DNA of 64,000 nt from assembly GCA_001898505.1 (NCBI GenBank), contig MKTZ01000011.1:248001-312000 (forward strand). Reading direction: 5' to 3'. Below are positions 12,367 through 55,035 of the stretch, one piece after another. The stretch's first letter is position 1. Every line of letters begins with the position of its first letter. The notes below the pieces were generated by a model. That model searched no databases and was not told the origin of the DNA. It was given only the letters and a program-made list of their open reading frames with translations. This DNA comes from Sphingobacteriales bacterium 50-39 (lineage in GTDB: Bacteria > Bacteroidota > Bacteroidia > Chitinophagales > Chitinophagaceae). The translations under genes and the position numbers were made by a program.

Positions 12367-12451
12367 GCGGGAATTGGGCTTCGACAAAAATTAGCCCAAT
12401 TCCCGCAAACCGCTAATTTCTGTCCTTCGGACAACGAACCTCCGGTCCGTT
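12367..12451 (+). repeat. Structured intergenic repeat, copy R1 (full, A hairpin perfect)
   Basis: The arms GCGGGAATTGGGCT (12367-12380) and AGCCCAATTCCCGC (12393-12406) form a perfect 14-base inverted repeat (module A). Then come the linker GCTAATTTCT, the small hairpin GTCCTTCGGAC, and a stem AACGAACC/GGTCCGTT. Relatives with the same linker occur at 17.9, 18.7, 23.2, 25.8, 28.3, 43.4 and 47.8 kb. The A hairpin faces the membrane-protein ATG at 12358. On the minus strand its loop reads CTAATTTTTG. Confidence 0.9.
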
Positions 12452-12484
12452 AAATAAATGTAGCAAAAATTTCATCCAAAACGT

Positions 12485-12492
12485 TAGATTTG
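12485..12492 (+). promoter_or_regulatory. Candidate -7 box TAGATTTG for the GH3 gene
   Basis: Matches the Bacteroidota TAnnTTTG -7 consensus and lies about 50 bases before the GH3 start. No clear TTTG -33 element was found at the expected spacing. Confidence 0.4.
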
Positions 12493-12505
12493 CCGCAAAC
12501 GCTAG

Positions 12506-12524
12506 CCTGTGAACGAATCACAGG
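12506..12524 (+). promoter_or_regulatory. Hairpin in the GH3 5' leader
   Basis: CCTGTGA and TCACAGG form a perfect 7-base inverted repeat around the loop ACGAA, ending 18 bases before the GH3 start. It lies downstream of the -7 box, so it would be transcribed. It could be an operator or a translation-control hairpin. There is no T-run, so it is not an intrinsic terminator. Confidence 0.4.
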
Positions 12525-12542
12525 GTGGCGAAATGATACTCA

Positions 12543-14069
12543 ATGGCGTTGATTGAAATTCAATTACCCAAATCGTTGGCCAGAGCATTACGGTTGCCCC
12601 AGAAATCTCCGCGGCGGCAGCAGCTGAAGGTATTGAGGAAACTGCTCAAAAAGGCCCGTTTCACCGAGTTTGGACAACAATACAGGTTTGATGAGATCCT
12701 GCTGAGCAAGCATTCCGGGAAGAAATTCCAGGAGATGGTGCCTACTTTCGATTACAACAAGATATACGAAGCATGGTGGCATAAGACCCTGGAAGGGAAG
12801 GCCGATATCTGCTGGCCCGGAAAGATAAAATACTATGCCCTTTCTTCCGGCACATCGGAGGCCGGGAGCAAATTCCTCCCTATCACCAATGACCTTCTTC
12901 GTGGCAATCGCATTGTCATGGTCAAGCAGCTGCTCACGCTTCGCAACTATCATGATATTCCCGTGAAGAGCATCGGCAAAGGCTGGTTGATGATCGGAGG
13001 CAGCACCAGTCTCCAAAAAAGTTCCGGTTATTATTCAGGCGATCTCAGCGGCATCACCGCCCGGAAAGTGCCCTTTTGGTTTCAACCCTTTTATAAGCCC
13101 GGGAAAAAGATAGCCCGTACAAAGGACTGGTCCAAAAAGCTGGAAGAGGTCGTACGCCTGGCGCCACAATGGGACATCGGATTCCTGGTGGGAGTACCCG
13201 GCTGGATACAGCTGTGTATGGAAAAGGTGATCGAGCGGTACAATCTGAACAATATTCATGAGATATGGCCCAATCTCGGGTTCTTTGTACACGGCGGAGT
13301 TTCTTTCGAACCATACAAAAAAGGCTTTGAAAAGCTCCTGGGCAAACCCATCACTTATATAGAGACCTATCTGGCATCGGAAGGATTTATCGCTTACCAG
13401 GACCTGCAGCACTCCAAAGGCATGCGCCTGGTGACCAATCAGCATATCTTTTTAGAGTTTGTACCCTTTGATAACAAGAATTTTGACCAGGACGGCAATC
13501 TGGTGGATAACCCCGAAGCGTATATGATCCATGAGGTGGAGGAAGGGAAGGACTACGCCATACTCTTGAGCACCAGCGCAGGGGCCTGGCGGTACCTGAT
13601 AGGCGATACCGTACGTTTTGTGGACAAGGCCCGCAGCGAGATCATTATCACCGGCCGCACCAAACACTTCCTCAGCCTGGTAGGCGAGCATCTTAGCGTG
13701 GACAACATGAACAAGGCCGTACAGGTCGTCAGCGAAGAGCTGAATATGTCCATACCCGAGTTCACCGTGGCGGGCATACCCCATGGTCTCTTTTTTGCAC
13801 ATCAGTGGTGGTTGGGCAGCGACGATAATGCAGACCCCGAAGTGCTGCGGCAGAAAATAGATGCAAAACTCCGGGAGTTGAATGATGACTACGCAGTCGA
13901 AAGAGACAGTGCATTAAAAGATATATACGTCCAGGTGCTGCCGGAAGCTAAATTCATGGAATTCATGCGGCTCAAAGGCAAAATAGGCGGACAACATAAA
14001 TTCCCCAGGGTGCTGAAGGGCAAAATGCTCCAGGATTGGCAGAAGTTCCTGGAGACAGGCGCCATCTAG
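12543..14069 (+). CDS. GH3 auxin-responsive promoter family (adenylate-forming) protein
   Basis: A 508-residue bacterial member of the GH3 acyl-adenylating family, which in plants conjugates amino acids to jasmonate or auxin. Seen: IKYYALSSGTSEAGSKFLPIT (phosphate-binding loop), FFVHGGVSFEPYKKGF, TYLASEGFIAYQ, an acidic turn at HEVEEGKDYAILLSTSAGAWRYLIGDTVRF, and IIITGRTKHFLSLVGEHLS. All ATP-binding motifs appear intact, so an acyl-AMP chemistry is likely. Common in Bacteroidota, with unknown substrate. The next gene (LysE family) starts 44 bases downstream on the same strand. Confidence 0.9.
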   Translation: MALIEIQLPKSLARALRLPQKSPRRQQLKVLRKLLKKARFTEFGQQYRFDEILLSKHSGKKFQEMVPTFDYNKIYEAWWHKTLEGKADICWPGKIKYYALSSGTSEAGSKFLPITNDLLRGNRIVMVKQLLTLRNYHDIPVKSIGKGWLMIGGSTSLQKSSGYYSGDLSGITARKVPFWFQPFYKPGKKIARTKDWSKKLEEVVRLAPQWDIGFLVGVPGWIQLCMEKVIERYNLNNIHEIWPNLGFFVHGGVSFEPYKKGFEKLLGKPITYIETYLASEGFIAYQDLQHSKGMRLVTNQHIFLEFVPFDNKNFDQDGNLVDNPEAYMIHEVEEGKDYAILLSTSAGAWRYLIGDTVRFVDKARSEIIITGRTKHFLSLVGEHLSVDNMNKAVQVVSEELNMSIPEFTVAGIPHGLFFAHQWWLGSDDNADPEVLRQKIDAKLRELNDDYAVERDSALKDIYVQVLPEAKFMEFMRLKGKIGGQHKFPRVLKGKMLQDWQKFLETGAI

Positions 14070-14113
14070 CCCCCACCCCCTGGCCGGGTGCGACGAGGCA
14101 CAAACAGAAAGCT

Positions 14114-14746
14114 ATGACAGAAGCCGTATTGAAAGGTTTAGCATTGGGATTCGTTCTTGCCTTATCGGTGGGGCCGATTATTTTTACCATCATCAAGCAA
14201 AGCCTGAACAACGGCCACAAAGGCGGCTTTAGCTTCGTCATCGGCGTCTGGGTCAGCGATATCATCCTCGTCTTCCTTAGCAATACCGTCAGTTCGCTGG
14301 TAAATCAAATGCTCGAGCATAAGAGCGCCATTGCCATCGCCGGCAGCGCCTTTCTCGTCTCCATGGGTGTTTATTTCGCCTTTTTCAAAAAAGCTCATCT
14401 GCCCACGGATGCAGAAGGAAAAGAGGTTCGCTTCCGTAAAAGGGATATGGCCAGGATCTTTGCATCCGGATTTATCATCAATACCCTCAATCCCGGGGTC
14501 ATCCTTTTTTGGCTGGGCAACGCCACCGTACTTTCGGTTGACCATACCCTGCAGGAACGTATCATAATTTTCTCCGTTTGCCTGCTGGTAAATATGGGAG
14601 CCGATGTGTTGAAAGTGATGATGGCCGGCCGGCTGCGCAGCAAGCTCACGTTACGTACACTCACCATCATCAATAAGATCTCCGGATCGCTGCTTATCGT
14701 TTTTGGCCTGGCGCTGGTGCTTTTCTCCCACAGGATCATGCATTAG
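14114..14746 (+). CDS. LysE family amino-acid exporter
   Basis: A 210-residue inner-membrane transporter. The ATG at 14114 opens MTEAVLKGLALGFVLALSVGPI, the standard LysE/RhtB first helix with the GP pair. A charged loop (KEVRFRKRDMARIFASGF) and INTLNPGVILFWLG with the NP motif follow, then three more helices. About six membrane segments in total, as in the family. Likely effluxes amino acids or related metabolites. Follows the GH3 gene closely, which hints at shared transcription but not at a shared substrate. Confidence 0.9.
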   Translation: MTEAVLKGLALGFVLALSVGPIIFTIIKQSLNNGHKGGFSFVIGVWVSDIILVFLSNTVSSLVNQMLEHKSAIAIAGSAFLVSMGVYFAFFKKAHLPTDAEGKEVRFRKRDMARIFASGFIINTLNPGVILFWLGNATVLSVDHTLQERIIIFSVCLLVNMGADVLKVMMAGRLRSKLTLRTLTIINKISGSLLIVFGLALVLFSHRIMH

Positions 14747-14790
14747 GATCACCCCTGCCCCATCCGCCCATAATAGGCTTTCATTAACAC

Positions 14791-14819
14791 TTGGATGTGA
14801 ACATCAATTTGTAAGTTTG
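14791..14819 (+). promoter_or_regulatory. Promoter, TTG -33 and TAAGTTTG -7
   Basis: TTG at 14791-14793 and TAAGTTTG at 14812-14819 with an 18-base spacer fit the Bacteroidota promoter pattern. It ends 9 bases before the ATG at 14829, so the mRNA would have almost no leader. Confidence 0.6.
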
Positions 14820-14828
14820 ACGTACGCC

Positions 14829-15338
14829 ATGAACAGGTTCATCATATTATTTTTTTGCCTTATCCCCTTTGTCACATCGGCGCAGACCGATCTGCTCGTC
14901 CTGAAGAAAAGAGGTGCGCTGATCCACACATATACAGTAGGGGATGCGTTGAACATGGAGACAGTCTATGGTCAATGGTTCAACGGCACCATCACCCAGC
15001 TGAAGCATGACACCGTATACGTAAATGGCCTGGGATTTCATTACAAAGAGATCCGCACCATCCGCCGGACACATTATAATTTTGGCAACACCGTTCTGCC
15101 CTACGGCATGTTTGCCGCCGCTGCGGGTATCCTCGTCCTGAATGCCGCCAACGGAGCCCTTCGACATGACAAGGCGTCCACCTGGTATACCCATTCCGGC
15201 ATTGTCACCGGTATCTCCCTCGTAGTAGGCGGTTTTATCCTGACCCGGACGACACGCTCCACCTATCATCTTGGACACAAGTTCAACCTGGACTATCTCG
15301 AACTCACGTTTAAAAAGCCCCCGCCTAAACCTTTCTGA
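14829..15338 (+). CDS. Exported hypothetical protein with two membrane segments
   Basis: A 169-residue protein. The ATG at 14829 gives a signal peptide (residues 1-18, FVTSAQ), and a promoter ends 9 bases upstream. Next is a small beta-domain (DLLVLKKRGALIHTYTVGD, HDTVYVNGLGFHYKEIRTI), then two hydrophobic segments (about 95-115 and 128-148) and a short basic tail ending KKPPPKPF. No family recognised. Similar short envelope proteins are common in Chitinophagaceae. Confidence 0.7.
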   Translation: MNRFIILFFCLIPFVTSAQTDLLVLKKRGALIHTYTVGDALNMETVYGQWFNGTITQLKHDTVYVNGLGFHYKEIRTIRRTHYNFGNTVLPYGMFAAAAGILVLNAANGALRHDKASTWYTHSGIVTGISLVVGGFILTRTTRSTYHLGHKFNLDYLELTFKKPPPKPF

Positions 15339-15380
15339 GACACATCTTCAAAATATTATCCATAAATTAATAGTTATTCC

Positions 15381-15812
15381 ATGGCCGATAAGTTTTACTC
15401 CGGGAGTTGGGAAGGGTATTATTCACACGGAGCAGGATATGACGAAGAACGGCAAAAGATCAAAGTGGGCTTCTATGTGAAAATGGTTTTGCACAACGGA
15501 ATACTGACAGGTACCTGCGAGGAATATGTAACAAAGGTTCATATGTGGAAAGCCGCGACCCTCACCGGTTCGATAGAGGGTGAGCTCATCCGGTTTGTCA
15601 AACAATATCCCTATTATTATGAAATTGATGAACAGAATAACATACAGATAGACAGAACCAGAGCTGCGGACCAGGTCCACTATTGGGGAAGCTTTGATCG
15701 CGTGATCCGTGCATTTTCCGGAACATGGGGAATAGACCAGCTGCCTGGCACGGACGGCTGGGAGGAGAACGATTATTTGTTTTCGGGCAGCTGGTCAATG
15801 ACCAGGGCATAG
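15381..15812 (+). CDS. Hypothetical protein, small beta-rich
   Basis: A 143-residue protein without signal peptide or membrane segment, rich in Tyr, Trp and Gly (SGSWEGYY near the start and FSGSWSM at the end suggest a closed beta-barrel, lipocalin- or avidin-like). The ATG at 15381 follows an AT-rich stretch. No family recognised. It stands alone between the membrane protein and the YegP-like gene. Confidence 0.6.
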   Translation: MADKFYSGSWEGYYSHGAGYDEERQKIKVGFYVKMVLHNGILTGTCEEYVTKVHMWKAATLTGSIEGELIRFVKQYPYYYEIDEQNNIQIDRTRAADQVHYWGSFDRVIRAFSGTWGIDQLPGTDGWEENDYLFSGSWSMTRA

Positions 15813-15892
15813 CCAGCCTTCGCCAAAGCTTCGGCAGACAAAGCCGCCGTCGTTGTAGAGTTAGTTCTACATTTTATTTTAACATAGCCCTA

Positions 15893-15900
15893 TATTTTTG
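15893..15900 (+). promoter_or_regulatory. Candidate -7 box TATTTTTG upstream of the YegP-like gene
   Basis: Full match to TAnnTTTG, 45 bases before the ATG at 15945. No clear -33 TTTG. Confidence 0.4.
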
Positions 15901-15944
15901 GATTGCTCTCGCACGCGTAAGGTGCCGTTTAATACAATCATACT

Positions 15945-16283
15945 ATGGGTAAATTTATCGTATCAGTTAGAAAGAACGGAGAATATCAATTCAACCTGAA
16001 AGCCGATAATGGCCAGGTGATCCTCACCAGTGAGGGCTATACCACCAAAGCAAGCTGTCTGAATGGCATTGAGTCGGTGAAAAAAAATGCTTCCGAGGAC
16101 AAACATTACGACCGCAAAACAGCCTCCAACGGAAAGTTTTACTTCAACCTCAAGGCGGCAAACAGCCAGATCATTGGGACAAGTGAAATGTATAATGAAG
16201 CGGCCGGGAGGGAAAATGGGATCGAGTCAGTTAAAAGGAACGCACCTACTGCAACCATAAATAATGACTACCAAAACAGTTAG
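15945..16283 (+). CDS. YegP-like DUF1508 tandem-domain protein
   Basis: A 112-residue protein with two copies of the DUF1508 (YegP) unit: GEYQFNLKADNGQVILTSEGYTT...GIESVKKNA and GKFYFNLKAANSQIIGTSEMYNE...GIESVKRNA. The family is widespread, small and cytosolic, with unknown biochemical role (stress-linked in some bacteria). The last 20 bases overlap the start of the next reading frame, so the two may be translationally coupled. Confidence 0.92.
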   Translation: MGKFIVSVRKNGEYQFNLKADNGQVILTSEGYTTKASCLNGIESVKKNASEDKHYDRKTASNGKFYFNLKAANSQIIGTSEMYNEAAGRENGIESVKRNAPTATINNDYQNS

Positions 16284-16566
16284 TCCCAAGGCAATTCATG
16301 CCGATTATGAAAAGTATAGCGGCGCTTTATGGGGATACCTGAAAAACTTCACCGTGGATGAGGCAATGGCGGCTAAGATACTGATCGAGACATTCAGGGA
16401 ATGGATATTGACTCCTGAAATTCCCGGATTTTCCAGGAAGTATACCCAATTGGTGCGGATCGCCACAGCCAAAGCCGTTGAAAATTTGAAATTATCACCC
16501 GATAGGCTGCAGGTAATCATTTTAAGCTATGCCCTATACATACGGGCAAATAAACCCTGGCAATAA
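16264..16566 (+). CDS. Truncated ECF-sigma-region-2-like protein
   Basis: A 100-residue frame overlapping the end of the YegP-like gene by 20 bases. The segment YEKYSGALWGYLKNFTVDEAMAAKILIETFREWI resembles sigma region 2.1-2.2 of ECF factors (core-binding helices). The sequence ends before any region 4, and no continuation was seen in other frames. It could be a sigma remnant, a standalone core-binding protein, or a chance similarity. Weak but consistent over about 35 residues. Confidence 0.5.
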   Translation: MTTKTVSPKAIHADYEKYSGALWGYLKNFTVDEAMAAKILIETFREWILTPEIPGFSRKYTQLVRIATAKAVENLKLSPDRLQVIILSYALYIRANKPWQ

Positions 16567-16691
16567 CCCACAGAATACTACCAGCCATTATCCAGGGCTG
16601 CCTCACGGAAAATACGGTCTCGTGTTTTCTCGCAATTACCCCTTTCCCGGCCCCCCACAAGTATGTATATTGCATACCGTAAACTAACCCG

Positions 16692-17936: not shown

Positions 17937-17942
17937 AAAAGT

Positions 17943-18096
17943 GCGGTAATTGGTCTTGTCGTAAAAATAGCCCAATTCCCGCATATCGCTAATGTCTGAG
18001 GCCTTCGTCGGAGTTCCGAGCCCTCACTCCTCCTCGGTCGGAACCTTCGCAGGCTCGGTTCTATCTGTCCTGCTGACGAACCGCTTTCAGCGGTTC
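17943..18096 (+). repeat. Structured intergenic repeat, copy R2 (full)
   Basis: Module A arms at 17943-17956 (GCGGTAATTGGTCT, imperfect) and 17969-17982 (AGCCCAATTCCCGC), then GCTAATGTCTG, then a long hairpin-rich B module including GAACC...GGTTC (T-A pair of other copies replaced by G-C), and a final hairpin GAACCGCT-TTC-AGCGGTTC at 18078-18096. The last part overlaps the 3' coding end of pnuC. Module A lies 7 bases upstream of the NadR-like ATG. On the minus strand the loop reads CTATTTTTACG. Confidence 0.88.
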
Positions 18097-18720
18097 CTGG
18101 CATTGTTTGGATTTCCTGTTCCATTCTATCAGCCCGGAAATGGCCATGATCAGTAAGATAAGATAATATACGCTGGTGAATACAAGGTGTTTTACAAAAT
18201 AGAGAGGGATAGAGGCGAAATTGGTAGCGATCCACCAGTGCCAGCTCTCCACTTTCTTTTTTGCCATCAGCCACATACCCGTGTAGGCCGTAGCAGAAGC
18301 AAATGCGTCCGCCCAGGGAATAGCCTGGGGCGCAAACCCTTTTTTCAACCAGGTCAGCGCCGAGAAGACGACGATATAAAAAAAGGAAAAGAAACCTATC
18401 TGCTGCGCCCATTCCCTGCCGCTGGACGAGGTGATCTTTAACAATGGCTTATCCTGTTTATCCTTCCGGGCCCAGAGTATCCAGCCGTAAATGCTCACCA
18501 CCGTATAATAAAAATTGACGCTGGCTTCACCCAACAGGGAATAGTGGAAGCTGAGATAGACATAGATGATGGTATTCACCAACCCCGTGGGATAGACCCA
18601 AATGTTTTCCGCCCGGCTGAACCAGACACTGAGGATGCCGGCAAACACCGCTATATATTCCAGACCGGAAGTATTATGTAGATCGCTTAGGAACTGCTGA
18701 TAAAGCTCTGCGAGATTCAT
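18061..18720 (-). CDS. pnuC: Nicotinamide riboside transporter
   Basis: A 219-residue, seven-helix membrane protein of the PnuC family. It opens ...LEYIAVFAGILSVWFSRAENIWVYPTGLVNTIIYVYL with the family's WxxGxxN-like region, followed by FYYTVVSIYGWILW and LKKGFAPQAIPWADAFASATAYTGMWLMAKKKVESWHWWI. The last dozen residues are encoded within repeat R2, so the natural C-terminus may have been altered. Same strand and order as the NadR-like kinase, forming a salvage pair. Confidence 0.94.
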   Translation of the reverse strand: MNLAELYQQFLSDLHNTSGLEYIAVFAGILSVWFSRAENIWVYPTGLVNTIIYVYLSFHYSLLGEASVNFYYTVVSIYGWILWARKDKQDKPLLKITSSSGREWAQQIGFFSFFYIVVFSALTWLKKGFAPQAIPWADAFASATAYTGMWLMAKKKVESWHWWIATNFASIPLYFVKHLVFTSVYYLILLIMAISGLIEWNRKSKQCQEPLKAVRQQDR

Positions 18721-18722
18721 TT

Positions 18723-18760
18723 AACGGACCGGAGGTTCGTTGTCCGAAGGACAAACATTA
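18723..18760 (-). repeat. Structured repeat, partial copy R3 (B module)
   Basis: AACGGACCGGAGGTTCGTT, then GTCCGAAGGAC (stem with GAA loop), then the linker remnant ACATTA. It is the reverse complement of the 3' part of R1 with almost no change. The linker's TAA is the stop codon of the Nfu gene, and the other end lies 3 bases before the pnuC ATG. Confidence 0.88.
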
Positions 18761-20686: not shown

Positions 20687-20690
20687 TATC

Positions 20691-23089: not shown

Positions 23090-23785
23090 CTATTTTTTCT
23101 TGGCCGCCTTTTTAGGAGCTGCCTTTTTGGGCGTTTCTTCCTCCTCTTTTGCGGCTTTTTTCTTAGGGGCTTCCCCAGAACGAGCCTTCGGCTCGTTGTC
23201 CGAAGGACCATCATTAGATTTCTTTGCTGCCGCCTTCTTTGCAGGGACCGGCTCTTCCTCCGCTTCTTTCTTGGCCTTCTTGGCAGGCGCCTTCTCTACC
23301 GCAACAGCCTTTTCTTCAACCGGCGCTGCTTTTTCCTTCTTTGGCTTTGCAGGGGCCTTTTCTTCTTCTACCAGCTCTTCCTCGGCTACCTCCTCTCCAG
23401 GCTCGGAAAGCTTGATCTCGATGTCATTGCTTTTTAACACACTGAACCATTTGACCATTTTCTTCATGTCACTGGCATACACACGGGTAAAGTCCATGTC
23501 CGGGTATACCTTTGTGAAATAAGCCTGTACGTCCTTATTGTCCTTTTCATTGGGCAGCCTTTCACTGCTTGCTTCCATGGCCTTCAATACATCCACCAGG
23601 TTGACATTTTCCCGGACCGTATAGATCTCGATACTCTCCAGGTGAGAGAAATTGTGGATACGGCTGGATACAAAACGGGTGGTCTTGTCATCCAACGAAC
23701 GTACGATCGCACCATCGGACTTGCTGCTTAACAACTCATATAATCCCGGCAATCCGGTCACAGCGATTACTTTGTTATATTCCAT
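23090..23785 (-). CDS. DUF5606 protein with Lys/Ala/Glu-rich tail
   Basis: A 231-residue protein. Residues 1-115 form the DUF5606 domain known from Bacteroidota (YNKVIAVTGLPGLYELLSSKSDGAIVRSLDD, IYTVRENVNLVDVLKAM, AYFTKVYPDMDFTRVYASDMKKMVKWFSVL). The rest is a low-complexity, highly charged tail of AKK/EE/PAKK units, typical of nucleic-acid or nucleoid-associated proteins. Residues about 190-202 of the tail are encoded by repeat R4. Function unknown; the ATG at 23785 precedes the domain exactly. Confidence 0.88.
   Translation of the reverse strand: MEYNKVIAVTGLPGLYELLSSKSDGAIVRSLDDKTTRFVSSRIHNFSHLESIEIYTVRENVNLVDVLKAMEASSERLPNEKDNKDVQAYFTKVYPDMDFTRVYASDMKKMVKWFSVLKSNDIEIKLSEPGEEVAEEELVEEEKAPAKPKKEKAAPVEEKAVAVEKAPAKKAKKEAEEEPVPAKKAAAKKSNDGPSDNEPKARSGEAPKKKAAKEEEETPKKAAPKKAAKKK
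23179..23217 (-). repeat. Structured repeat, partial copy R4 inside a coding region
   Basis: AACGAGC-CTTCG-GCTCGTT, then GTCCGAAGGAC, then CATCATTAG. It is 39 bases, a multiple of three, so the host frame is kept. Only the B module and linker are present. The stem differs in sequence from R3 (AACGGACC/GGTTCGTT) but pairs better. Confidence 0.85.
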
Positions 23786-23895
23786 GCTGATAATTTTATG
23801 GGAGATGCAAGTTAATACGAAACGGCCAGTTTGACCATAAATTTTTACCCCTACGGTGCCGCAGCCCACACAGCACCGAAGGCCCCGGCCGAGTC

Positions 23896-25637: not shown

Positions 25638-25674
25638 AGGTCGCCATAGACGACCTGGCCGAAGGCCCAGATAG
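25638..25674 (-). repeat. Structured repeat, partial copy R12
   Basis: AGGTCG and CGACCT flank CCATAGA, followed by the small stem GGCCGAAGGCC (GAA loop) and CAGATAG. Same order as R3, R4 and R7 with new stem sequences. It lies just upstream of the histidine kinase ATG. Confidence 0.65.
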
Positions 25675-25772: not shown

Positions 25773-25858
25773 TGCTTAGATCTTCGCTACGCTCAGACCT
25801 TCGTCGGAGCTCCATGTATTCGCTCCTCCTCGGTCGTAACCTTCGCTGCGCTCGGTTA
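25773..25858 (+). repeat. Structured repeat, copy R5 (B module)
   Basis: GCTTAGATC linker variant, then the multi-hairpin B module CTTCGTCGGAG...CTCCTCCTCGGTCG and TAACC...GGTTA. Very close to R2, R6 and R11. Its final TAA supplies the stop codon of the 784-residue surface-protein gene. The terminator at 25725-25766 occupies the position of module A. Confidence 0.82.
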
Positions 25859-28240: not shown

Positions 28241-28384
28241 GGAAAACGGGCGCCCGAGAAATATAGCCCGTTTTCCAGAAAGATCTAATGTCTGAGGCCT
28301 TCGTCGGACCTGCTTCGACACGGTCCTCCTCGGTCGTAACCTTCGGTCCCTCGGTTACGGACAACGTGCCTCCGGCCCGTTCTG
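28241..28384 (+). repeat. Structured intergenic repeat, copy R6 (full, divergent A hairpin)
   Basis: A hairpin with different sequence, GGAAAACGGGC (28241-28251) and GCCCGTTTTCC (28266-28276), a perfect 11-base pairing, then CTAATGTCTG and the B module with GTAACC...GGTTAC. The A hairpin faces the ATG at 28210, and its loop reads TATATTTC on the minus strand. Loss of sequence but not of pairing argues for selection on structure. Confidence 0.85.
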
Positions 28385-35039: not shown

Positions 35040-37523
35040 CTATTTTTTCTTTTTGAGCGCTTTTTTGAAAGGGTCCCAGCTGATCTTCATTTTGCCATCA
35101 TCTCCCCTGCGTACCCGCAGACGCACGCTAAGACCCGCCTTGCCGTCATTGCCCTTACTCTCCGGAGCCATGGCAGCATTGCGATCTTTCAGATTGCTCA
35201 AAGGCGCCTTCACGCTGAGGTCCGGACCCGTCCGGAAATCATAGATCCCCTCCACAAAAAGTGTAAAGGCCGTGGACTGTATCTCCATGCGATGGATATG
35301 CAAGGTAGTTGTATCCAGGTCCAGCTGATTGTTCAACTCGCCAAACCGGATTTCGGAGAGATCTCTTTTCTTCAACACCATCTCATGTATCTTTTCCATC
35401 GGCTCGAAGTCGATCAGCTGCCCTCCTTTGATGCTAAAACTGACGGTTCCTTTCATGCTGTTTTTAACCATCCGCGCCTTGTCCGTGAGCTGTCCTGTCA
35501 TGGCTACATCGGCCGTGAGCTTGCCTTTGAGGTTCCTGGCCGTTAGACCGTCCTGCCCAAAATTGTTAAACGCCGTAAAGAGCTTCGGAATATCCACCTG
35601 TTCCAAATGACTTTTAAAAGTCAGCGGATTTCCTCCACCGCCCGGCTGTCTGCGAAATGTCCCTGTCAATGTCAGCGACCCGTCGTCCTGAGCGAGCTCC
35701 ATTTTTTTTAGCTGCACCTCACCCGCCTGGAATAACAATTCAGCCTTTGCCCGTACACCCGAGAAGTGCTGATAACGTAGCTCCGCGGCATCTATTTGCA
35801 GATGGATCGCCCCATCCCGTAGCAGCTGGTCCAGCCGCCCAGCCGATTCGCGAAACAATGGTTTCGAGCCCGCCCGCCCCATCGCTGCCGCCGCCGGTCT
35901 GCCCAGCACAGGCGCCAGGTCTTCGAGGTCCAGCCGGGGGCTGCTGAGAGTAAGATCGATAGCCGGACGCACCCCGGGTCCGTTGTCCAAAGGACCGACA
36001 TGTTTGTCGCCGGGGTTTTGATCGATCAGCGGAGAAATATTCCGGATAATACCTTTCAAGCCGAGCTTGCTGCTGCCGGCCCTGGCTTCCAGTTTATCGA
36101 ATACCAGGTCCTGGTCTTTAAATCGGATCTTGCCCGTGCCTTCCGTCAGCTGAAAATTATAGGGAAGATAGAGTACCGTGGCGCTGTCGATCGTCATGCT
36201 GCCAAACAGCGACACCGTCGAACTATCCTCCTCCCGAAGAGGACCCTTGTAGTTGATATTCAGCGAACAGGCGCCTTTACGAAAGGCAATGCTCCTGCTG
36301 CCCGCCAGCTCGTTCAGCCGGGTCAGCTCGAAAGCCGACCGGAGATCACAATCCAGCATGGGGTGTTTCAGGTCCGTGATCACCGCCGTATCGGAATGCA
36401 AAGGAATGTTCATCAGCGAGCCGGAAAAGGACAATAGCCGGATCGCCGAATTTTCATCCCTTCTTTTTTCATGACGCACCCATTCATTGGTGAAGCTCGC
36501 CATAACATTCACCCCGTCCAATCGGCCCACAGGGGTATTGACACTGGCATTCTGCAGGTTCAGGTGGACAGTCATCAACGGAGTAGGGTCGTCTGCCGCC
36601 CCCGCATCCAGGTCAGCCTGTATCGATACAGGCTTGTCGACATCATAGAGGTCTAGTTTTTGTTGGATGGCAGGCGTCAAAAGCGCTGTCGCCTGTCTAT
36701 AAGGAATATCATTCACCTGAATACTTAATGTAAAAGGATCAGGCTTTACGTTGGGAAAAAATCGCCCCGTCAATACAAAAGGATGGCCATCGATGCGCAC
36801 CATGGCCTTATTGAACTGTACGATCTTACTGCCCGAATTGAATTGCAGGATAAAATGCCCCGCCAGTGTCTTGTCTTTTATAAAGCTCCCTTTTTCCGTA
36901 TTGAAGGAGAAATGCTGCACCAGCGCATCGGCATCTGTTGTCAGTGACAATGTTCTTCCGTTCTTGCCGATAGCACAATCCAGCCGCCGGAATTCCAGGT
37001 CGAAGAATTTATGGCGATCCTGGTTTTCGATGACCAGCCGGACATCCGTGCACGCGAAATCCGGAAACTGCACATCCTCACGGCCCCCAGACAGACCACG
37101 GTTCAATGCGGAGGTATTGCTATAGCCCGTCGTGTCGGTAAAAAGATAGACAGTGCCTTTTTCCACGAACACCTTACCCAGCCGGGCCTTGCCGGCAAAA
37201 AGACTCCGGAACAGGGCAAGGCTGAGATACATATCCTCCGCATGCAAGAGATCATGATGATGCTCCTGCCAGAGACTATCGCGGAGCGTGACTTTTGAGA
37301 GATGCAGTGTGATATGTGGAAAATGATGGAAGAAAGAAACTTCCATATCTCCAATGCGGACGTCCCCACCTAAACGTTTCTTTAATTCCGTCCGGGCTTT
37401 TTGAAGGATCACGGGCTTACGGATCATGATATACGCCGCCACCCCCAGCCATAAAAGAATGAACAGGCAGCCGAGGCCGCCTGTTATCCATAAACTGTAT
37501 CGAAAAAATTTTTTCAAATTCAA
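35040..37523 (-). CDS. AsmA-like envelope protein
   Basis: An 827-residue protein with a single N-terminal membrane anchor (about 9-33) and a large periplasmic region. Motifs of the AsmA/TamB-like superfamily occur at both ends: KARTELKKRLGGDVRIGDMEVSFFHHFPHITLHLSKVTL near the start, and a terminal beta-rich section with MKGTVSFSIKGGQLIDFEPM. Such proteins shuttle lipids to the outer membrane. There is no ATG before the anchor; the TTG at 37523 overlaps the stop of the upstream peptidase gene (TTGA), giving a likely coupled start. Confidence 0.85.
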   Translation of the reverse strand: MNLKKFFRYSLWITGGLGCLFILLWLGVAAYIMIRKPVILQKARTELKKRLGGDVRIGDMEVSFFHHFPHITLHLSKVTLRDSLWQEHHHDLLHAEDMYLSLALFRSLFAGKARLGKVFVEKGTVYLFTDTTGYSNTSALNRGLSGGREDVQFPDFACTDVRLVIENQDRHKFFDLEFRRLDCAIGKNGRTLSLTTDADALVQHFSFNTEKGSFIKDKTLAGHFILQFNSGSKIVQFNKAMVRIDGHPFVLTGRFFPNVKPDPFTLSIQVNDIPYRQATALLTPAIQQKLDLYDVDKPVSIQADLDAGAADDPTPLMTVHLNLQNASVNTPVGRLDGVNVMASFTNEWVRHEKRRDENSAIRLLSFSGSLMNIPLHSDTAVITDLKHPMLDCDLRSAFELTRLNELAGSRSIAFRKGACSLNINYKGPLREEDSSTVSLFGSMTIDSATVLYLPYNFQLTEGTGKIRFKDQDLVFDKLEARAGSSKLGLKGIIRNISPLIDQNPGDKHVGPLDNGPGVRPAIDLTLSSPRLDLEDLAPVLGRPAAAAMGRAGSKPLFRESAGRLDQLLRDGAIHLQIDAAELRYQHFSGVRAKAELLFQAGEVQLKKMELAQDDGSLTLTGTFRRQPGGGGNPLTFKSHLEQVDIPKLFTAFNNFGQDGLTARNLKGKLTADVAMTGQLTDKARMVKNSMKGTVSFSIKGGQLIDFEPMEKIHEMVLKKRDLSEIRFGELNNQLDLDTTTLHIHRMEIQSTAFTLFVEGIYDFRTGPDLSVKAPLSNLKDRNAAMAPESKGNDGKAGLSVRLRVRRGDDGKMKISWDPFKKALKKKK

Positions 37524-42171: not shown

Positions 42172-42209
42172 GAACGAACCACAGGTTCGTTGGCCGAAGG
42201 CCAGACTTA
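42172..42209 (-). repeat. Structured repeat, partial copy R7 after recA
   Basis: ACGAACC-ACA-GGTTCGT, then TGGCCGAAGGCCA (GAA loop) and GACTTA, whose TTA is the recA stop codon (TAA) on the minus strand. Same order as R3 and R4, with a changed first stem and G-C exchange in the small stem (GTCC/GGAC to GGCC/GGCC). Confidence 0.85.
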
Positions 42210-43237: not shown

Positions 43238-43448
43238 TTGATTCAGTAAAGTTAGAATAATTATTTTGTTAACACCAAAATTTTTAGCACTTTCTCACTA
43301 ATTTTTTTGGCCCCGCCGGGCGCACCCGGGCCGCGCACAGCGCGGCCGCGCGAAGCGCAATAGAACAGCGACCGTGTAAAGGCCCCGTGCCGGCAGGCAC
43401 GAACTCCGTGAAAAGGCCGTCCCTCCGCAGCAATCCAGGAGCCGCAGG

Positions 43449-43505
43449 AGGCGGCTCGTCCGAAGGACAGACATTAGCGGTTTGGGGGAATTTTCCCTAT
43501 GCCGG
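43449..43505 (-). repeat. Structured repeat, copy R8 (A hairpin decayed)
   Basis: GAGCCGC-AGGAG-GCGGCTC, then GTCCGAAGGAC, then AGACATTAGCGG (linker), then GGGGGAATTTTCCCTATG in the position of module A. The A end faces the ECF sigma start at 43587 as in R1, R2, R6 and R9. Confidence 0.8.
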
Positions 43506-47756: not shown

Positions 47757-47784
47757 AAGGGAGAGAGTAGCCGAAGAAATAAGT

Positions 47785-47975
47785 GCAGGAATTGGTCTTG
47801 TCCAAAAAATAGACCAATTCCCGCATATGGCTAATGTCTGTAGGAGCTTCGAAGACCTGCTTCGCCACGAGAGCTTCGCTCGTATCCTTCGTCGGTTCCA
47901 ACACTGTTGGACCCTTCCTCGGATACCTCGGTCGGGACCTCCGGTCCTGGACGAACCGCTGAAAGCGGTTCCTGG
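47785..47975 (+). repeat. Structured intergenic repeat, copy R9 (full, longest)
   Basis: Module A: GCAGGAATTGGTCT (47785-47798) with AGACCAATTCCCGC (47811-47824). It pairs GGTCT/AGACC where R1 has GGGCT/AGCCC, a compensatory change. Linker GCTAATGTCTG, an extended B module, and a final hairpin GAACCGCT-GAA-AGCGGTTC (47953-47971). Module A faces the DUF885 start 29 bases away; loop on the minus strand CTATTTTTTG. Confidence 0.9.
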
Positions 47976-49109: not shown

Positions 49110-49126
49110 GTGTAACATACTAGCGG

Positions 49127-49160: not shown

Positions 49161-49235
49161 TGCCCCAGTCGATCATTTTAACTGGTAAAATACGTTATTT
49201 GTATTTATTGTTTTAGCCCAATAGGAACCCGGCTT

Positions 49236-51608: not shown

Positions 51609-51663
51609 CAGCCGCAGCAGGCGACTTGTCCAATGTGTTGTCCTGGGGGGAAGAAATATAAAT

Positions 51664-51690
51664 AAGGCGGCCCGTCGGACCGCCTTTTCT
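51664..51690. terminator. Bidirectional terminator between the sensor kinase and the small helical gene
   Basis: AAGGCGG (51664-51670) pairs with CCGCCTT (51680-51686), followed by TTTTCTT on plus. The minus side is AT-rich (ATTTATATTT). Confidence 0.7.
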
Positions 51691-51723
51691 TGAGCGCCCA
51701 CTGAAGGGCCGGGCGCCAATTTT

Positions 51724-51999
51724 TTACTGAGGCTTTTCTTCTTCTTTTCCCGTAAGCTTATCCCAGACCCCTTTTGCCTTGTCCGTCAGATCATGGATCT
51801 TTTCGTTTGCTTCATCCCGTAGGTGCTCCAGGTTCTCCTTCATTTCCCCTGACTTTACTTTGTCCCAGGTTTCACCCGCCTTTTGCTTGATGTCATCGGC
51901 AAATTCGCCTGCCTTACCCTTTAATTCTTCGAGCTTTTCAGCTGCCTGGTCTTTTAAGGCGCTGGCCTTGTCACTCCAGGATTCGTTTGGATTCGACAT
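51724..51999 (-). CDS. Small LEA-like/YtxH-like amphipathic helical protein
   Basis: A 91-residue, very hydrophilic protein made of repeated helices (SWSDKASALKDQAAEKLEELKGKAGEFADDIKQKAGETWDKVKSG...). The 11-residue periodicity with K/E/A/D matches LEA or apolipoprotein-type stress proteins. Could stabilise membranes or proteins under desiccation or osmotic stress; this is inference. It is convergent with the sensor kinase. Confidence 0.75.
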   Translation of the reverse strand: MSNPNESWSDKASALKDQAAEKLEELKGKAGEFADDIKQKAGETWDKVKSGEMKENLEHLRDEANEKIHDLTDKAKGVWDKLTGKEEEKPQ

Positions 52000-52047
52000 A
52001 GAAAGATGATTTAAAAGTGATGTAATAAAAACAATACCTGATTACGG

Positions 52048-52080
52048 ATAACGAACCCAAGGTTCGCTCGGACCGAAAAC
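52048..52080 (-). repeat. Structured-repeat fragment R10 (weak)
   Basis: AACGAACC-CAA-GGTTCG, then CTCGGACCGA. It resembles the first stem of the B module, but the GAA hairpin and linker are damaged. It lies next to the stop of the minus-strand gene at 52080. Confidence 0.45.
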
Positions 52081-52553
52081 TACTTTAAGAGACTTAATGC
52101 TTTGTCAAAGGCCGGACGTTTGCTGGCCCAGCTGCTGAGAAAGGCTTCGGGTTTTAGTCCTCCTTCCAGGTTCTTCAACATCCCGCCCGCATCGGAGAGT
52201 GTTTTCACGGTACCGGCAGCTTGCGTGATGCTGCCGACATTGAAGCCCTGCTTGAACATAGAGGGTTTGATAAAACTGGTCAACGAAGATACGCTTTTCG
52301 CCATGCTGATGGCATCGGAAACTTTACCGGCGGCGCTCAGCCAATTGGTCTTACCCCCGCTGGCCCAGCTGCTCAAAAGAGAGGTGGGTTTTAGCGCCCC
52401 GGCAAATTGTGTCAACAGGCTGCCGGGACTGGGTGATGAGCCACCCGCCTTGGAGAGAACATCTTTTAACTGTGCCTGCGATGTGGTGGCAGTCAGGCCG
52501 ATCACGAATAATAGCAGAAGGAATCTTTTTGGTAGGAAGGTGATGCTGGTCAT
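52080..52553 (-). CDS. Secreted protein with repeated LKPxxxLSSWAS units
   Basis: A 157-residue exported protein. The ATG at 52553 gives a signal peptide (residues about 1-27, TATTSQAQ). The mature part contains two matching units, FAGALKPTSLLSSWASGGKTNW and LEGGLKPEAFLSSWASKRPAF, separated by about 80 residues, and a GSLLTQF/GGMLKNL partner segment. No family recognised. Probably periplasmic, helical. The duplication suggests a structural or assembly role. Confidence 0.7.
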   Translation of the reverse strand: MTSITFLPKRFLLLLFVIGLTATTSQAQLKDVLSKAGGSSPSPGSLLTQFAGALKPTSLLSSWASGGKTNWLSAAGKVSDAISMAKSVSSLTSFIKPSMFKQGFNVGSITQAAGTVKTLSDAGGMLKNLEGGLKPEAFLSSWASKRPAFDKALSLLK

Positions 52554-52630
52554 GGCATTTTTCTTAAATATAAGACCTTTCCCCCATATAAAGAGTGCCA
52601 TGCGACGGTTATCTTCTTGTTAACGGGCCA

Positions 52631-54241
52631 TTACTTCGCCCGTACTCCCGTTCTTCGGAAACGGGCCTCCTCCAGATCCAGCTCGAATTCCTTGCCCCGC
52701 AGCAGCTCCTCCGGGTATAGTTTATCATGACGCATTTTCGACAGCTCCTTTCGCTGCACATCCACCAGCTCCAGCAACAGCTGACGGTAGCGGGGGAGAA
52801 AGGAAGGATTCTCTTCCCTGCCCTCTTCCTTTTCCAGCTTTTTACTGGTTATCTGCACCATCCGCTCATAGCGCTCTTTCAGCCGGTTGAATGCATCGAT
52901 GGAAGTCGCCTCGTCTCCATATTGCTCTGTGATATGGTCCAGCACGGCAGTGGCCAGCCGGAGCCGGATACCCAGCTGCTGCTCTTCTTCATTCTCCTGC
53001 ACTTCCAGCTTGAGCCGGCGCACCAGCAGCGGTAAGCTAAGCCCCTGCAGCACCAGTGTAAAAAGGATGACGACAAAAGTGATGAACAGGATGAGATTCC
53101 TGTGCGGAAAAGCCGTCTCGGGCGCCAGGGTGTACGGAATAGCCAGGGCAGAAGCCAGTGACACGATGCCCCGCATACCGCTCCATCCGATGATAAATAC
53201 CATTTTTTCCTCCGGCCTTGGTTCCCGCATACGGATCTTTTTAAAACAGATGCGCGGCAGATAGGCGCTGGGAAAGACCCAGACGATCCGGATAACGATG
53301 GCTACGAGGCTGATCACGATGCCGTAGAGGATCGCCGATCCAAGTGAGTATTCCCCCAGCCCTTTTACAATGGCAGGCAATTGCAGCCCGATAAGGATAA
53401 AGACAACGCCATTCAGCAAAAAAATAAGCACGCTCCACACACTGTTGGCTTGCAGCCGGGAATTGTACGTGAGACTGTCATGGCTCCGGTAGCTGCCAAA
53501 AAGACCTCCGCTTACTACCGCCAGCACCCCGGAGAAATGAAAATGTTCCGCCGTGATATACATCAGGTACGGCGCTATGAGAGAAATACCCGTATCGATG
53601 CTGGGTGTGGTGGGTAGCCACCGGTGAATTAGATATATACCCACACCAATAAACAGCCCGATGGCAATACCCATAATAGATACCAGCGCGAATTCCACAC
53701 CCGCCTTCCATAATACGAATTGCCCCGTCACCATCGCCACCATGGCAAATCTGAACACGATCAGGCTCGACGCGTCATTTATCAGGCTTTCGCCTTCAAG
53801 TATAGTAACCACACGCTTGGGGACTTTAAGGGATTGCAATACGCTCGTGGCAGCCACCGCGTCGGGCGGGGAAACGATCCCGCCCAGGAGAAAGCCCAGG
53901 GCCAGGGGGAATCCCGGGATCATCCGGTGGCTGACCCAGGCCACCACGCCAGCCGTGCAGATCACCAGTCCGAATGCCAGCAGCCCGATAGGACGGCGCC
54001 ACCGCCAGAAATCCTGCCAGGAGGTATTCCAGGCAGCCGAATACAACAATGGAGGAAGAAAAATGATAAAAATAATGTCCGGATCGATCATGATCCGCGG
54101 GACACCCGGAAAAAGACTGATAAGGAGTCCGGCAATGACCAAAAAGATAGGGTAGGAGATACCAAGCTTGTCACTCAGCATGGATAACATCGTGACGGCA
54201 AATAAAAGAGATATGATCAGCAGTAGATTGTCCTGGAGCAT
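52631..54241 (-). CDS. CPA1 family Na+/H+ antiporter
   Basis: A 536-residue antiporter with about 12 membrane helices (1-405) and a hydrophilic helical tail of about 130 residues. Family marks: LPPLLYSAAWNT, LGGIVSPPDAVAATSVLQSL with the ion-binding Asp, EGESLINDASSLIVFRFA (the conserved ND pair), and FIIGWSGMRGIVSLASALAIPY. All transport residues look intact. The ATG at 54241 starts at the first helix; the open frame further upstream is not used. It pumps Na+ or K+ against protons. The tail may regulate it. Divergent from the META lipoprotein gene. Confidence 0.95.
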   Translation of the reverse strand: MLQDNLLLIISLLFAVTMLSMLSDKLGISYPIFLVIAGLLISLFPGVPRIMIDPDIIFIIFLPPLLYSAAWNTSWQDFWRWRRPIGLLAFGLVICTAGVVAWVSHRMIPGFPLALGFLLGGIVSPPDAVAATSVLQSLKVPKRVVTILEGESLINDASSLIVFRFAMVAMVTGQFVLWKAGVEFALVSIMGIAIGLFIGVGIYLIHRWLPTTPSIDTGISLIAPYLMYITAEHFHFSGVLAVVSGGLFGSYRSHDSLTYNSRLQANSVWSVLIFLLNGVVFILIGLQLPAIVKGLGEYSLGSAILYGIVISLVAIVIRIVWVFPSAYLPRICFKKIRMREPRPEEKMVFIIGWSGMRGIVSLASALAIPYTLAPETAFPHRNLILFITFVVILFTLVLQGLSLPLLVRRLKLEVQENEEEQQLGIRLRLATAVLDHITEQYGDEATSIDAFNRLKERYERMVQITSKKLEKEEGREENPSFLPRYRQLLLELVDVQRKELSKMRHDKLYPEELLRGKEFELDLEEARFRRTGVRAK

Positions 54242-54360
54242 GCTGTAATTTAGAAATTTTCCCGGGGAATTTATTCCCCAGGCCGATCTCCCATCTATCC
54301 CGCCAGCCCACCGCCCGGCGATTGGCATAGTTTTCGACCGCCTTTATAAAAAACACCGGT

Positions 54361-54903
54361 ATGAAGCACCTTTTTACGATATCCAAACGAACCGTAGGTT
54401 CATTATTGGGCGTATCCTGCCTGGTCCTGCTCGCATGTCAGCAGCCGCAGACGAAGAACAGCCCCACCCCCAGGGACACCCTGACAAAAGATTCCGCCGC
54501 CATGGCGGCCATTCCCAAACGTCCTGTTATCCTCGACTCCACCGTACTGGATGGTTCCTGGTACCTGCAGCCGGTGCTGCCTTCCGACACCGCCACGGGC
54601 AAAAGAGCTACCATCGAGTTCAATGTAAAAAAAGCGCATTTCTCCGGCAATACCGGATGCAATAGCATGAATGGAAAATATTATTTCAGCATCGTCGACA
54701 GCAGCCTTTCCTTTGGCGATAAGCTCGTCACGACCAAAATGGCCTGTGTCGGCTATAATGAAAAGGCATTTCTGAAAAACCTTCTGCTGACGACGCACTT
54801 CAAGATGAGAAATGGCGTCCTCATCCTGCTGGCCGAAGATAATACAGAGCTGTCCAGATGGGAAAGGAAACCAACAAACCCGGCCAATACAGGGAAGGCA
54901 TAG
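54361..54903 (+). CDS. META domain lipoprotein
   Basis: A 180-residue lipoprotein. Signal with Cys26 (VLLACQQ). The META/HslJ domain (about 60-170) shows LDGSWYLQPV, IEFNVKKAHFSGNTGCNSMNGKYYFSIVDSSLSF, TKMACVGYNEKAFLKNLL and a final VLILLAEDNTELSRWER, with the paired cysteines of the family. Roles range from heat stress to secretion support; the precise role is unknown. Confidence 0.88.
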   Translation: MKHLFTISKRTVGSLLGVSCLVLLACQQPQTKNSPTPRDTLTKDSAAMAAIPKRPVILDSTVLDGSWYLQPVLPSDTATGKRATIEFNVKKAHFSGNTGCNSMNGKYYFSIVDSSLSFGDKLVTTKMACVGYNEKAFLKNLLLTTHFKMRNGVLILLAEDNTELSRWERKPTNPANTGKA

Positions 54904-54916
54904 AGCACCGCGCCAG

Positions 54917-54970
54917 CTACTTCAATTCTTTCACCTTGATATTGCGGAAATAGATAGGCGCACCCGCATG
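54917..54970 (-). pseudogene. 3' remnant of a DUF1080 (3-keto-disaccharide hydrolase-like) gene
   Basis: Reading the minus strand from 54970 to 54917 gives HAGAPIYFRNIKVKELK and a TAG stop. This is the standard end of DUF1080 domains. The remnant is in the same frame as the truncated gene at 55022-55489 (distance divisible by three), with repeat R11 between them. The normal segment between the two halves (about 30 residues around the PPWL and GxIGLQ motifs) is missing. Confidence 0.85.
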
Positions 54971-55035
54971 AGGCCTTCGTCGGAGCTGCTTCGTCACGCT
55001 CCTCCTCGGTCGTAACGTTCGCTACGCTCCGTTAT
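54970..55035 (+). repeat. Structured repeat, copy R11 (B module) inside a disrupted gene
   Basis: AGGCCTTCGTCGGAG, CTTCGTCACGCTCCTCCTCGG, then TAACG-TTCGCTACGCTC-CGTTA. Compared with R5 (TAACC/GGTTA) the stem has a compensatory C-G to G-C swap. Module A is absent. Its TAG codon ends the truncated DUF1080 frame. Confidence 0.88.

Follow-up and report, generated by a model that had tools for sequence, protein, structure and literature searches.

REPs are short repeats that occur widely among bacteria, and the palindromic elements of Rickettsia are palindromes that lie in frame within genes. The elements described here occur in some soil bacteria of the Puia group and differ from those of Rickettsia in their host and in being mostly intergenic. 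The TnpAREP subclass 2.6, or RAYT group 5, was assigned to Bacteroidetes in the part of PMC6006769 consulted. Like this subclass, the Puia elements have a Bacteroidota host, lack GT[AG]G and occur in copies elsewhere in the genome, and a related protein carries HUH, WQ and a YIH[QN]NP-like motif (PMC6006769, same part). However, subclass 2.6 genes are said to be flanked by the structures, whereas 14 of the 15 Puia loci were without the element in the examined flanks; the tyrosine belongs to the subclass 2.6 motif, whereas it is replaced in Puia, where a second, HUH-less protein adjoins; and the subclass 2.6 structures were called weaker, the comparison with the Puia elements being by description alone (PMC6006769, same part). 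The group 3 REPs of Stenotrophomonas are likewise short palindromes with a 3-nt loop, and those of Stenotrophomonas and Marinomonas are cleaved at CT, which was found here in TCT-G before S and in CT-G after B (excerpts of PMC8266576). Differently, group 3 REPs have a GTAG motif and a catalytic tyrosine, while the Puia element has TAATGT and two abutting hairpins (PMC8266576, excerpts). Similar to REPINs and BIMEs, the Puia element is a composite of several palindromic units (BIME: PMC6006769, in part), but a REPIN or BIME is an inverted pair of one unit according to the excerpts consulted, whereas the Puia units follow each other in the direct order A-(C)-S-B. The ends of IS200/IS605 and their miniature derivatives also show hairpins with a 5' guide tetranucleotide (PMC8266576, excerpts); an IS200/IS605-type autonomous parent with the same ends was not seen in 864 kb of the 7.9 Mb genome. 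No earlier description of the Puia family was found among the RAYT/REP papers surveyed or in the consulted parts of PMC6006769, PMC3733652 and PMC8266576, although one may exist, for instance among the subclass 2.6 structures of PMC6006769. The dissemination of REPs was called poorly understood in PMC8266576 (excerpts). The Puia elements resemble known bacterial REPs, but a related protein pair in the same genomes has lost residues normally used for DNA cutting.

The window, a stretch of 64,000 nt from Sphingobacteriales bacterium 50-39 (GCA_001898505.1, contig MKTZ01000011.1, positions 248,001-312,000, forward strand), contained a repeat whose core was a 30-nt double hairpin, in which S (GTCCTTCGGAC) abutted B (8 bp, 3-nt loop). 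A longer hairpin, A, was often located upstream of S+B, with C hairpins in between, and the units were ordered as A, the guide-like TAATGTCT, optional C hairpins, the adjoining S and B and a terminal CTG, measuring 30 nt for S+B alone and about 95 nt for A-S-B. The right end was sharp, with an information content of 0.44, 0.31 and 0.85 bits at CTG and at most 0.14 bits thereafter. The conserved 5' motif of S was TAATGTCT and that of hairpin A was A[TA]G in 22 of 31 cases (by eye), neither of which is the GT[AG]G tetranucleotide of canonical GTAG-type REPs. A shared order of hairpin A, linker, small stem with a GAA loop and further stems had been proposed in the first-pass annotation. The common architecture was confirmed, but that order mixed the strands because the GAA loop lies on the other one; in the strand reading GCTAATGTCTG, the small stem is GTCCTTCGGAC with the loop TTC. 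What had been taken for a second type of B stem (TAACC/GGTTA) was a separate module, C. The linker proposed as shared was not enriched alone in the window (13 matches with at most 2 mismatches vs 14.15 expected) and was therefore dropped as a family marker, whereas linker plus S (TAATGTCNGTCC) was enriched genome-wide (66 vs 9), and S itself gave 102 matches vs 8 for the reversed control. Hairpin A was detected at 31 of 101 sites when the scan was anchored on S, vs 5 in the control; a loose linker-based scan (128/1325 sites vs 70/1197 in reversed sequence) was too noisy and was set aside. The subtypes of A were linked to those of B (9:1 vs 0:6, p 0.0009), which suggests that A, S and B move together.

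Based on the covariance model R1, built on S+B and used to search 864 kb of the 7.9 Mb, matches with E<0.03 were obtained in the window at 12410, 18055, 18723, 23179, 25638, 28334, 35966, 42173, 43439 and 47932. Nine of the twelve places listed earlier were among them; those at 25.8 and 55.0 kb consisted of C modules only, that at 52.0 kb was a lone B-like hairpin, and the match at 35966 had been omitted from the list. The DNA fold of 12364-12454 had a z of -6.4, and the fold of the 18.7-kb copy was no better than shuffles (60/200 as good). All features are given in Table 1.

Table 1. Positions of the hairpin modules and repeat copies in the window
Feature	Position	Strand	Remark
Hairpin A, 12.4-kb copy	12366..12407	+	15 bp, 12-nt loop
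Linker TAATTTCT (family consensus TAATGTCT)	12414..12421	+	
S (GTCCTTCGGAC) + B hairpin, 7/8 pairs	12422..12451	+	R1
Hairpin A	17941..17984	+	
C modules (CCTTCG...CTCGG hairpins)	18000..18065	+	
B hairpin GAACCGCTTTCAGCGGTTC	18078..18096	+	in 3' end of NMN-transporter reading frame (18061-18720, minus)
S+B copy	18723..18760	-	fills gap from NifU-like gene stop codon to next gene's start codon
S+B copy	23179..23220	-	inside DUF5606/DUF6852 protein reading frame (23090-23869)
S (GGCCTTCGGCC) + B copy	25638..25667	-	R1
C modules only	25795..25858	+	
Hairpin A, type 2 (GGAAAACGGGC), AATGTCC before it	28241..28276	+	
C modules	28296..28358	+	
B hairpin, 28.3-kb copy	28363..28381	+	R1
Degenerate S+B copy	35966..36003	-	R1 E 0.028; 39 nt in frame in 853-aa reading frame
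S+B copy	42173..42202	-	at recA stop codon
S+B copy	43439..43468	-	R1
Hairpin A	47783..47826	+	
Linker + C modules	47827..47952	+	
B hairpin	47953..47971	+	R1 E 0.013
Lone B-like hairpin (AACGAACCCAAGGTTCGCT)	52050..52068	+	no R1 match
C modules only	54972..55036	+	

Compensatory change was evaluated at 101 sites that had been selected on S only, with B pairing disregarded. At least 6 of the 8 B pairs were kept at 91 of these sites, compared to 15 of 404 controls; the 91 paired copies contained 45 different B stem sequences, 57 of the 101 B hairpins were fully paired, and the mutual information exceeded all 2000 shuffles at each of the eight B pairs. In alignment A2, the percentage paired, the cells changed on both sides and the covariation score were each reached by 0/500 shuffles, while neither the number of pairs nor that of pair types was beyond shuffles (65/500 and 124/500). 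These values come from shuffled pairs, slid controls and permutations of the mutual information, all of which ignore the relatedness of the copies. Alignment A1 comprised 52 rows, namely 48 of the 66 scan matches plus L004, L010, L017 and L022, which were added despite unpaired or poorly paired B, with the remaining 18 matches (chance-like, near-duplicate) excluded by eye; since A1 copies were chosen partly by pairing, its counts are biased, and A2 and the test on the 101 sites are the fair ones. The earlier observation that the stems vary yet stay paired was reproduced, A2 and the S-picked test fitted its suggestion of selection for structure over sequence, and a lack of significant covariation, which it had named as counter-evidence, was not borne out.

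The source genome contained at least 147 copies according to the covariance model, and the element was present in 15 of 33 genomes belonging to the genus (Puia group), with at least 2 to 148 copies each; copy numbers are lower bounds, as 150 candidates were scored per genome. Copies restricted to the window, the other refuting outcome considered beforehand, are inconsistent with these counts. The repeat family is real, genome-wide and structure-conserved. No copies were detected at E<=0.01 in 28 further or element-free genomes. The named strains of the Puia group included Puia dinghuensis CGMCC 1.15448 and Flavitalea sp. BT771. On a RecA tree of 30 of the 33 genomes (G001, G017 and G019 gave no RecA; G029 was partial), the 15 element-bearing genomes formed one clade, with 1 change, in 66% of bootstrap trees. 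A hairpin census by stem length failed to tell the genomes apart, in part because the mirror control of P. dinghuensis contained low-complexity sequence, and was discarded.

Of 63 copies, 45 lay between genes, compared to 17.6% of random points. In their short palindrome, high copy number and mostly extragenic location, the elements match REPs in the wide sense. No clear orientation preference was found in tandem gaps (9 copies same, 16 opposite to the genes), and two copies were in frame inside genes (23179, 35966). Most copies had no counterpart at the corresponding sites in the nearest relatives; because the relatives are distant, gain here and loss there were not separated at every site. 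The 12.4-kb unit (~12364-12451) was missing in G002, G007 and G009, the 18723 and 35966 copies in G002 and G007, and the 23179 copy in 25/25 relatives' orthologues with a readable C-terminus. The recA site was empty in G002 and G009 and also occupied in G007; at the 52.0-kb hairpin, BLAST flanks gave about 46 extra nt relative to G007 and direct alignment gave no clean gap. Pairs of copies were 96% identical over 94 and 98 nt, and the match stopped there in 480-nt windows, whereas the RAYT-like genes of the nearest relatives were at dS about 0.8-1.5; two copy pairs shared sequence beyond the unit, at L008 (gene duplication) and L325 (copies close together). The description as REP/MITE-like was upheld by elements that are short, palindromic, mostly intergenic, dispersed and largely missing from relatives' matching sites. 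The repeats flanking the copies had no shared length, so a common target-site duplication was not found. TCGTAAG (7 nt) flanks the recA copy and AAAT (4 nt) the 12.4-kb copy, both resembling target duplications.

A tandem RAYT-like pair, RAYT-1/RAYT-2, started 1.9 kb beyond the window, and the genomes that carry it are precisely the 15 of 33 with the element, a link that amounts to a single contrast because these genomes form one clade. The dN/dS of the RAYT-like genes was 0.04-0.09. The best PDB match of the RAYT-2 model was 4er8, a complex of the E. coli RAYT with a REP hairpin (E 1.3e-5, TM 0.51/0.59). RAYT-2 had the HUH motif and TnpAREP fold of subclass 2.6, H-L-H being kept in 15/15, and lacked the catalytic tyrosine of YIH[QN]NP, which was replaced in 15/15 (H in 12, S in 2, E in 1). 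In a weak alignment, the replaced position corresponded to E. coli TnpAREP residue Y115 (numbered by counting along chain 4er8), whose Y115F form has been called a catalytic mutant. In RAYT-1, the HUH of TnpAREP was lost in 22/22 loci (L341-L362); its AlphaFold model was poor (pLDDT 43) and was left unused. Both proteins scored below the cut-off of 80 for NCBIfam NF047646 (REP-associated tyrosine transposase), RAYT-2 with 65 bits and RAYT-1 with 53 bits. An R1 match near the pair was found in 1/15 loci (2.3-3.6 kb around RAYT-2), and a REPtron arrangement, in which REPs flank the cognate RAYT gene, was absent from the examined flanks of the other 14. All 8 Niastella/Longitalea genomes carried the pair with a HUH-less partner, retained the RAYT-2 tyrosine (8/8) and were without the element at E<=0.01; 400 kb of one of them showed no other abundant repeat. 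Given the lost catalytic residues, the single clade and the Niastella/Longitalea pair without element, the pair stays a candidate mobiliser. Three states can be compared, namely tyrosine kept without element (Niastella/Longitalea), tyrosine lost with elements (Puia) and pair absent without element, which opens a direct test of whether the tyrosine is needed for repeat spread or the proteins merely bind the repeats. For such work the family offers strong covariation, a sharp boundary (15/33 genomes) and named strains.

These results suggested, with a probability of about 0.7, that the family consists of non-autonomous REP-like mobile DNA elements, with RAYT-1/RAYT-2 as the most likely candidate partner. 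A hairpin-binding protein would recognize the hairpins in single-stranded, folded DNA, which would preserve pairing and short loops while stem letters change, and copies would spread via a folded single-stranded intermediate into gaps and at stop codons. RAYT-1/RAYT-2 may be this hairpin-binding pair, probably no longer a canonical HUH-tyrosine nuclease. A bolder version, which we consider distinctly unlikely, is that two co-conserved pseudo-transposases operate a REP-type system, the elements having spread after tyrosine loss: RAYT-2 of the Puia ancestor would have lost its catalytic tyrosine beside the already HUH-less RAYT-1, and the repeats would either move by a non-HUH-tyrosine route, e.g. 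folded single strands handed to replication or repair, or serve as binding sites in a chromosome-level function.

The elements could instead be miniature remnants of a different type of autonomous transposon, lost or unseen, and the RAYT-like pair would then be unrelated. The pair without element in Niastella/Longitalea, its lack of a catalytic set in Puia and the element near it in only 1/15 loci all fit this possibility, which is doubtful but the most serious alternative; against it, 864 kb yielded no transposon bounded by A on one side and S-B on the other. The 3' arm of A with its 5' arm occurred there at 45 places (59 matches without the 5' arm excluded), 20 of which led to the linker, with or without S or C, while the other 25, read by eye, comprised 21 hairpins of the same kind on the opposite strand, 1 leading straight to C and 3 chance-like. 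Under another view, pairing is kept by mutation and not by selection, with template switching during replication correcting imperfect palindromes, and recombination disperses the copies passively. The many fully paired B hairpins, together with their diverse stem sequences, imply few intermediates, as this would predict, and it could account for pairing but not for spread; conserved linker letters, a sharp right end and the clean placement of the 12.4-kb unit in an otherwise intact site also count against it, and it is quite improbable. Very improbable is a much-duplicated structured RNA acting as terminator, mRNA stabiliser or riboregulator, the other option of the first-pass annotation, although pairing survives sequence change and some copies directly follow stop codons. 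The window had 0 Rfam matches at the gathering threshold, the orientation bias was not clear, copies were inserted in frame in coding sequence, and relatives' sites were empty. Moreover, B mismatches in the 91 copies were G-T 12 vs A-C 17 (G-U 7 vs A-C 7 in a smaller copy set), and with no G-U excess the elements are therefore read as DNA rather than RNA.

Besides the RAYT pair, the candidate partner of these probably mobile elements, a Y1 gene in the aro operon (G000:C25:35761) was considered as mobiliser and rejected, since RAYT-2 is the sole PF01797 match at E<=0.001 in G009, a genome that contains at least 118 copies. The tyrosine of this Y1 gene was Phe in G000 and G007 (4 of 16 loci read).

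The repeats reported in the window by the first-pass annotation were present, and on the TAATGTCTG strand their modules followed the order hairpin A, short spacer, TAATGTCT, optional C hairpins, S, B and CTG. Hairpin A contained 10-17 pairs, with an A-rich stretch in the loop before the 3' arm; a score-based scan placed it at 31 of the 101 S sites vs 5 in the control, and A[TA]G lay immediately 5' of the A stem in 22 of the 31 (by eye). The C hairpins (CCTTCG...CTCGG) were located between TAATGTCT and S. The S stem had 4 bp and a TTC loop, and was abutted without spacer by B, with 8 bp and a 3-nt loop. Two main A sequence types, GCGGGAATTGG and CCGGAAAACGGGC, were recognized. Among copies with both modules classified, type-1 A was accompanied by GAxCC B stems in 9/10 and type-2 A by xACGRxCC B stems in 6/6, and A type was linked to B type (p 0.0009; 28 of 45 copies were without a classified A). 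The right end of the element was sharp at CTG, and pairs of copies had 94 and 98 nt in common at 96% identity, where the match stopped. The window covers G000:C11:248001-312000 of the 7.9 Mb source genome (27 contigs), in which the S small stem GTCCTTCGGAC occurred 102 times vs 8 for the backwards pattern, and TAATGTCNGTCC 66 times vs 9 for the backwards control. Among the 400 commonest 12-mers in 464 kb of the window's contig, 36 passed a fourfold excess over the reversed sequence, and 35 of them were assigned by eye to the element family.

The stems of the repeats had been claimed to vary in sequence while keeping their pairing, and this was borne out for B. At the 101 S sites, for which an exact match to the S motif was the sole criterion of choice, B with at least 6 of 8 pairs was found in 91, compared with 15 of 404 control 19-mers; 57 sites were fully paired, and the 91 paired copies carried 45 different 5' arms. 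Across 82 distinct B sequences, the paired fraction and mutual information lay beyond all 2000 shuffles at each of the eight pairs, with a small margin at pair 7 (0.89 vs highest 0.88). In the 30 seed loci (28 distinct), both-side changes were observed in 7/8 pairs, the covariation score was reached by 0/500 shuffles, and two other covariation measures fell within the shuffle range (65 and 124 of 500 shuffles), while 92% of cells were paired vs 21-44% in slid controls. Kinship among copies inflates such tests; the effect size and the slid controls argue against kinship as the whole cause of the covariation.

Single-stranded DNA folding was applied to eight window pieces, and seven, including both strands of the 12.4-kb copy, reached a stability at or above that of 197 of the 200 shuffles, with z from -2.3 to -6.4. 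The best fold of the plus strand of the 12.4-kb copy did not contain B, and the 18.7-kb piece did not stand out from its shuffles (z -0.4). Mismatches in B were G-T or T-G in 12 cases vs A-C or C-A in 17, giving no sign of one strand being kept as RNA. Of the two proposals made earlier, structured RNA and REP-like element, the former was not supported, and the elements fit a family of mobile DNA that is REP-like and non-autonomous.

The copies were not limited to the window. A covariance model of the S+B core (model R1) gave at least 147 matches in the source genome at E<=0.01, and matches were obtained in 15 of 33 genomes of the genus (from 2 to at least 148 each) and in none of the other 18. 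No match at E<=0.01 was detected in 28 further genomes, of which 24 belong to other genera and four are element-free members of this one (best 0.17). Among 18 genomes reached via named loci, four of the Puia group, Puia (Chitinophagaceae) belonging to the genus group of the source genome, had 129, 61, 16 and 4 matches (E<=1), and in the 14 others nothing reached E<=0.01 (best 0.03, Runella).

Copies lay mainly between genes, with 45/63 intergenic vs 17.6% of random points by a rough gene caller; some of the 18 "inside" copies were probably start-site overcalls. Of 42 intergenic copies with both neighbours known, 25 had tandem neighbours, 9 divergent and 8 convergent ones, and in the tandem gaps 9 copies ran along the gene direction and 16 opposite. 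Two copies directly adjoined tRNA-gene-like sequences (L071:8300-8600, minus-strand coordinates, by eye).

At eight aligned sites (by eye), the same element was found at none in relative G002 and at one, recA, in relative G007. The relatives carried copies at other places: a search of 231 kb from three of their genomes gave 13 hits (E<=0.05), including the G007 recA copy. Empty sites in relatives imply either gain of copies after the species diverged or their loss in the relatives; gain is the reading for the 12.4-kb site and the coding sites. On the 3' side of recA in relatives (L199-L227), most of the genomes inspected by eye had a GGGTT(A/G)GTAAGTA-like block together with a terminator-like hairpin.

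Element copies with their state in relatives, and the tandem RAYT-like genes
Feature	Position	Description	Missing in
Coding insertion	23179-23220	low-complexity region, exact ends approximate	25/25 relatives' orthologues with C-terminus read
Coding insertion	35966-36003	39 nt, in frame	G002 and G007
Whole unit	12.4 kb		G002, G007 and G009
Copy	18.7 kb	spans gap, stop codon to next start codon	G002 and G007
Tandem RAYT-like genes RAYT-1/RAYT-2	G000:C11:313876-315137 (L032:779-2040)	start 1.9 kb past the window's right end	

Of the 33 genomes, precisely the 15 with the element had a RAYT-2 at 55-100% identity, and RAYT-1 adjoined it in 15/15. Among the 18 element-free genomes, 14 had no RAYT-2 match and four had remote matches of <=35% identity, except for two short C-terminal pieces at 50% in one of them (G026). 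Both proteins scored under the NCBIfam cut-off for the family; the predicted structure of RAYT-2 (pLDDT 72.5) best matched 4er8, the E. coli RAYT bound to a REP hairpin. The dN/dS of the pair was 0.04-0.09 among three genomes, a rough value with dS near saturation. HUH was lost from RAYT-1 in 22/22 loci and kept in RAYT-2, in which the YIHxNP tyrosine was replaced in all 15 genomes (H 12, S 2, E 1). By a weak alignment to 4er8, counted along the chain, the replaced position is Y115 of E. coli TnpAREP, whose Y115F form is termed a catalytic mutant in PMC8266576. In the same bacterial family, three genomes from a different genus (G235, G223 and G034) also had H at this position, and a second RAYT-like gene was not found in their fetched flanks. 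A C-module-like sequence was noticed by eye at L032:280-310, within the reading frame just upstream of the pair, which we take to be helicase-like.

Given this co-occurrence, a tie between element and protein pair is attractive. However, it rests on one clade, and its simplest form is contradicted by Niastella/Longitalea, where the pair was present with the tyrosine kept in 8/8 genomes and no element was detected at E<=0.01 in any of the eight. The REPtron layout was also lacking, the element being found at 1/15 RAYT-2 loci in the 2.3-3.6 kb around the gene. The whole clade lacks the tyrosine, so its loss probably preceded the spread of those copies in the source genome that are most alike; such an early loss would mean that RAYT-2 acts without the tyrosine, or that another enzyme does the work. 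In Niastella/Longitalea (L354-L362), about 350 nt with conserved sequence blocks separated the two RAYT-like genes.

Passages of the literature describe atypical structures without GT[AG]G in Bacteroidetes subclass 2.6 (PMC6006769), hairpin recognition, a REP with a 3-nt loop and cleavage at CT (PMC8266576), and CGTC repeats in some Bacteroidetes (PMC3733652). Neither the architecture of the present element nor a tandem pair without catalytic residues was found in these passages of the three papers.

None of the three Y1-family proteins found in the source genome kept both HUH and the tyrosine. One IS200-like Y1 gene (L031:1477-1905, contig C25) was set between two genes. Its neighbours are presumably DAHP-synthase-like and 3-dehydroquinate-synthase-like, judging by translation. 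The tyrosine of this Y1 gene was changed to Phe in the source genome and G007, and was kept in G002 and G027.
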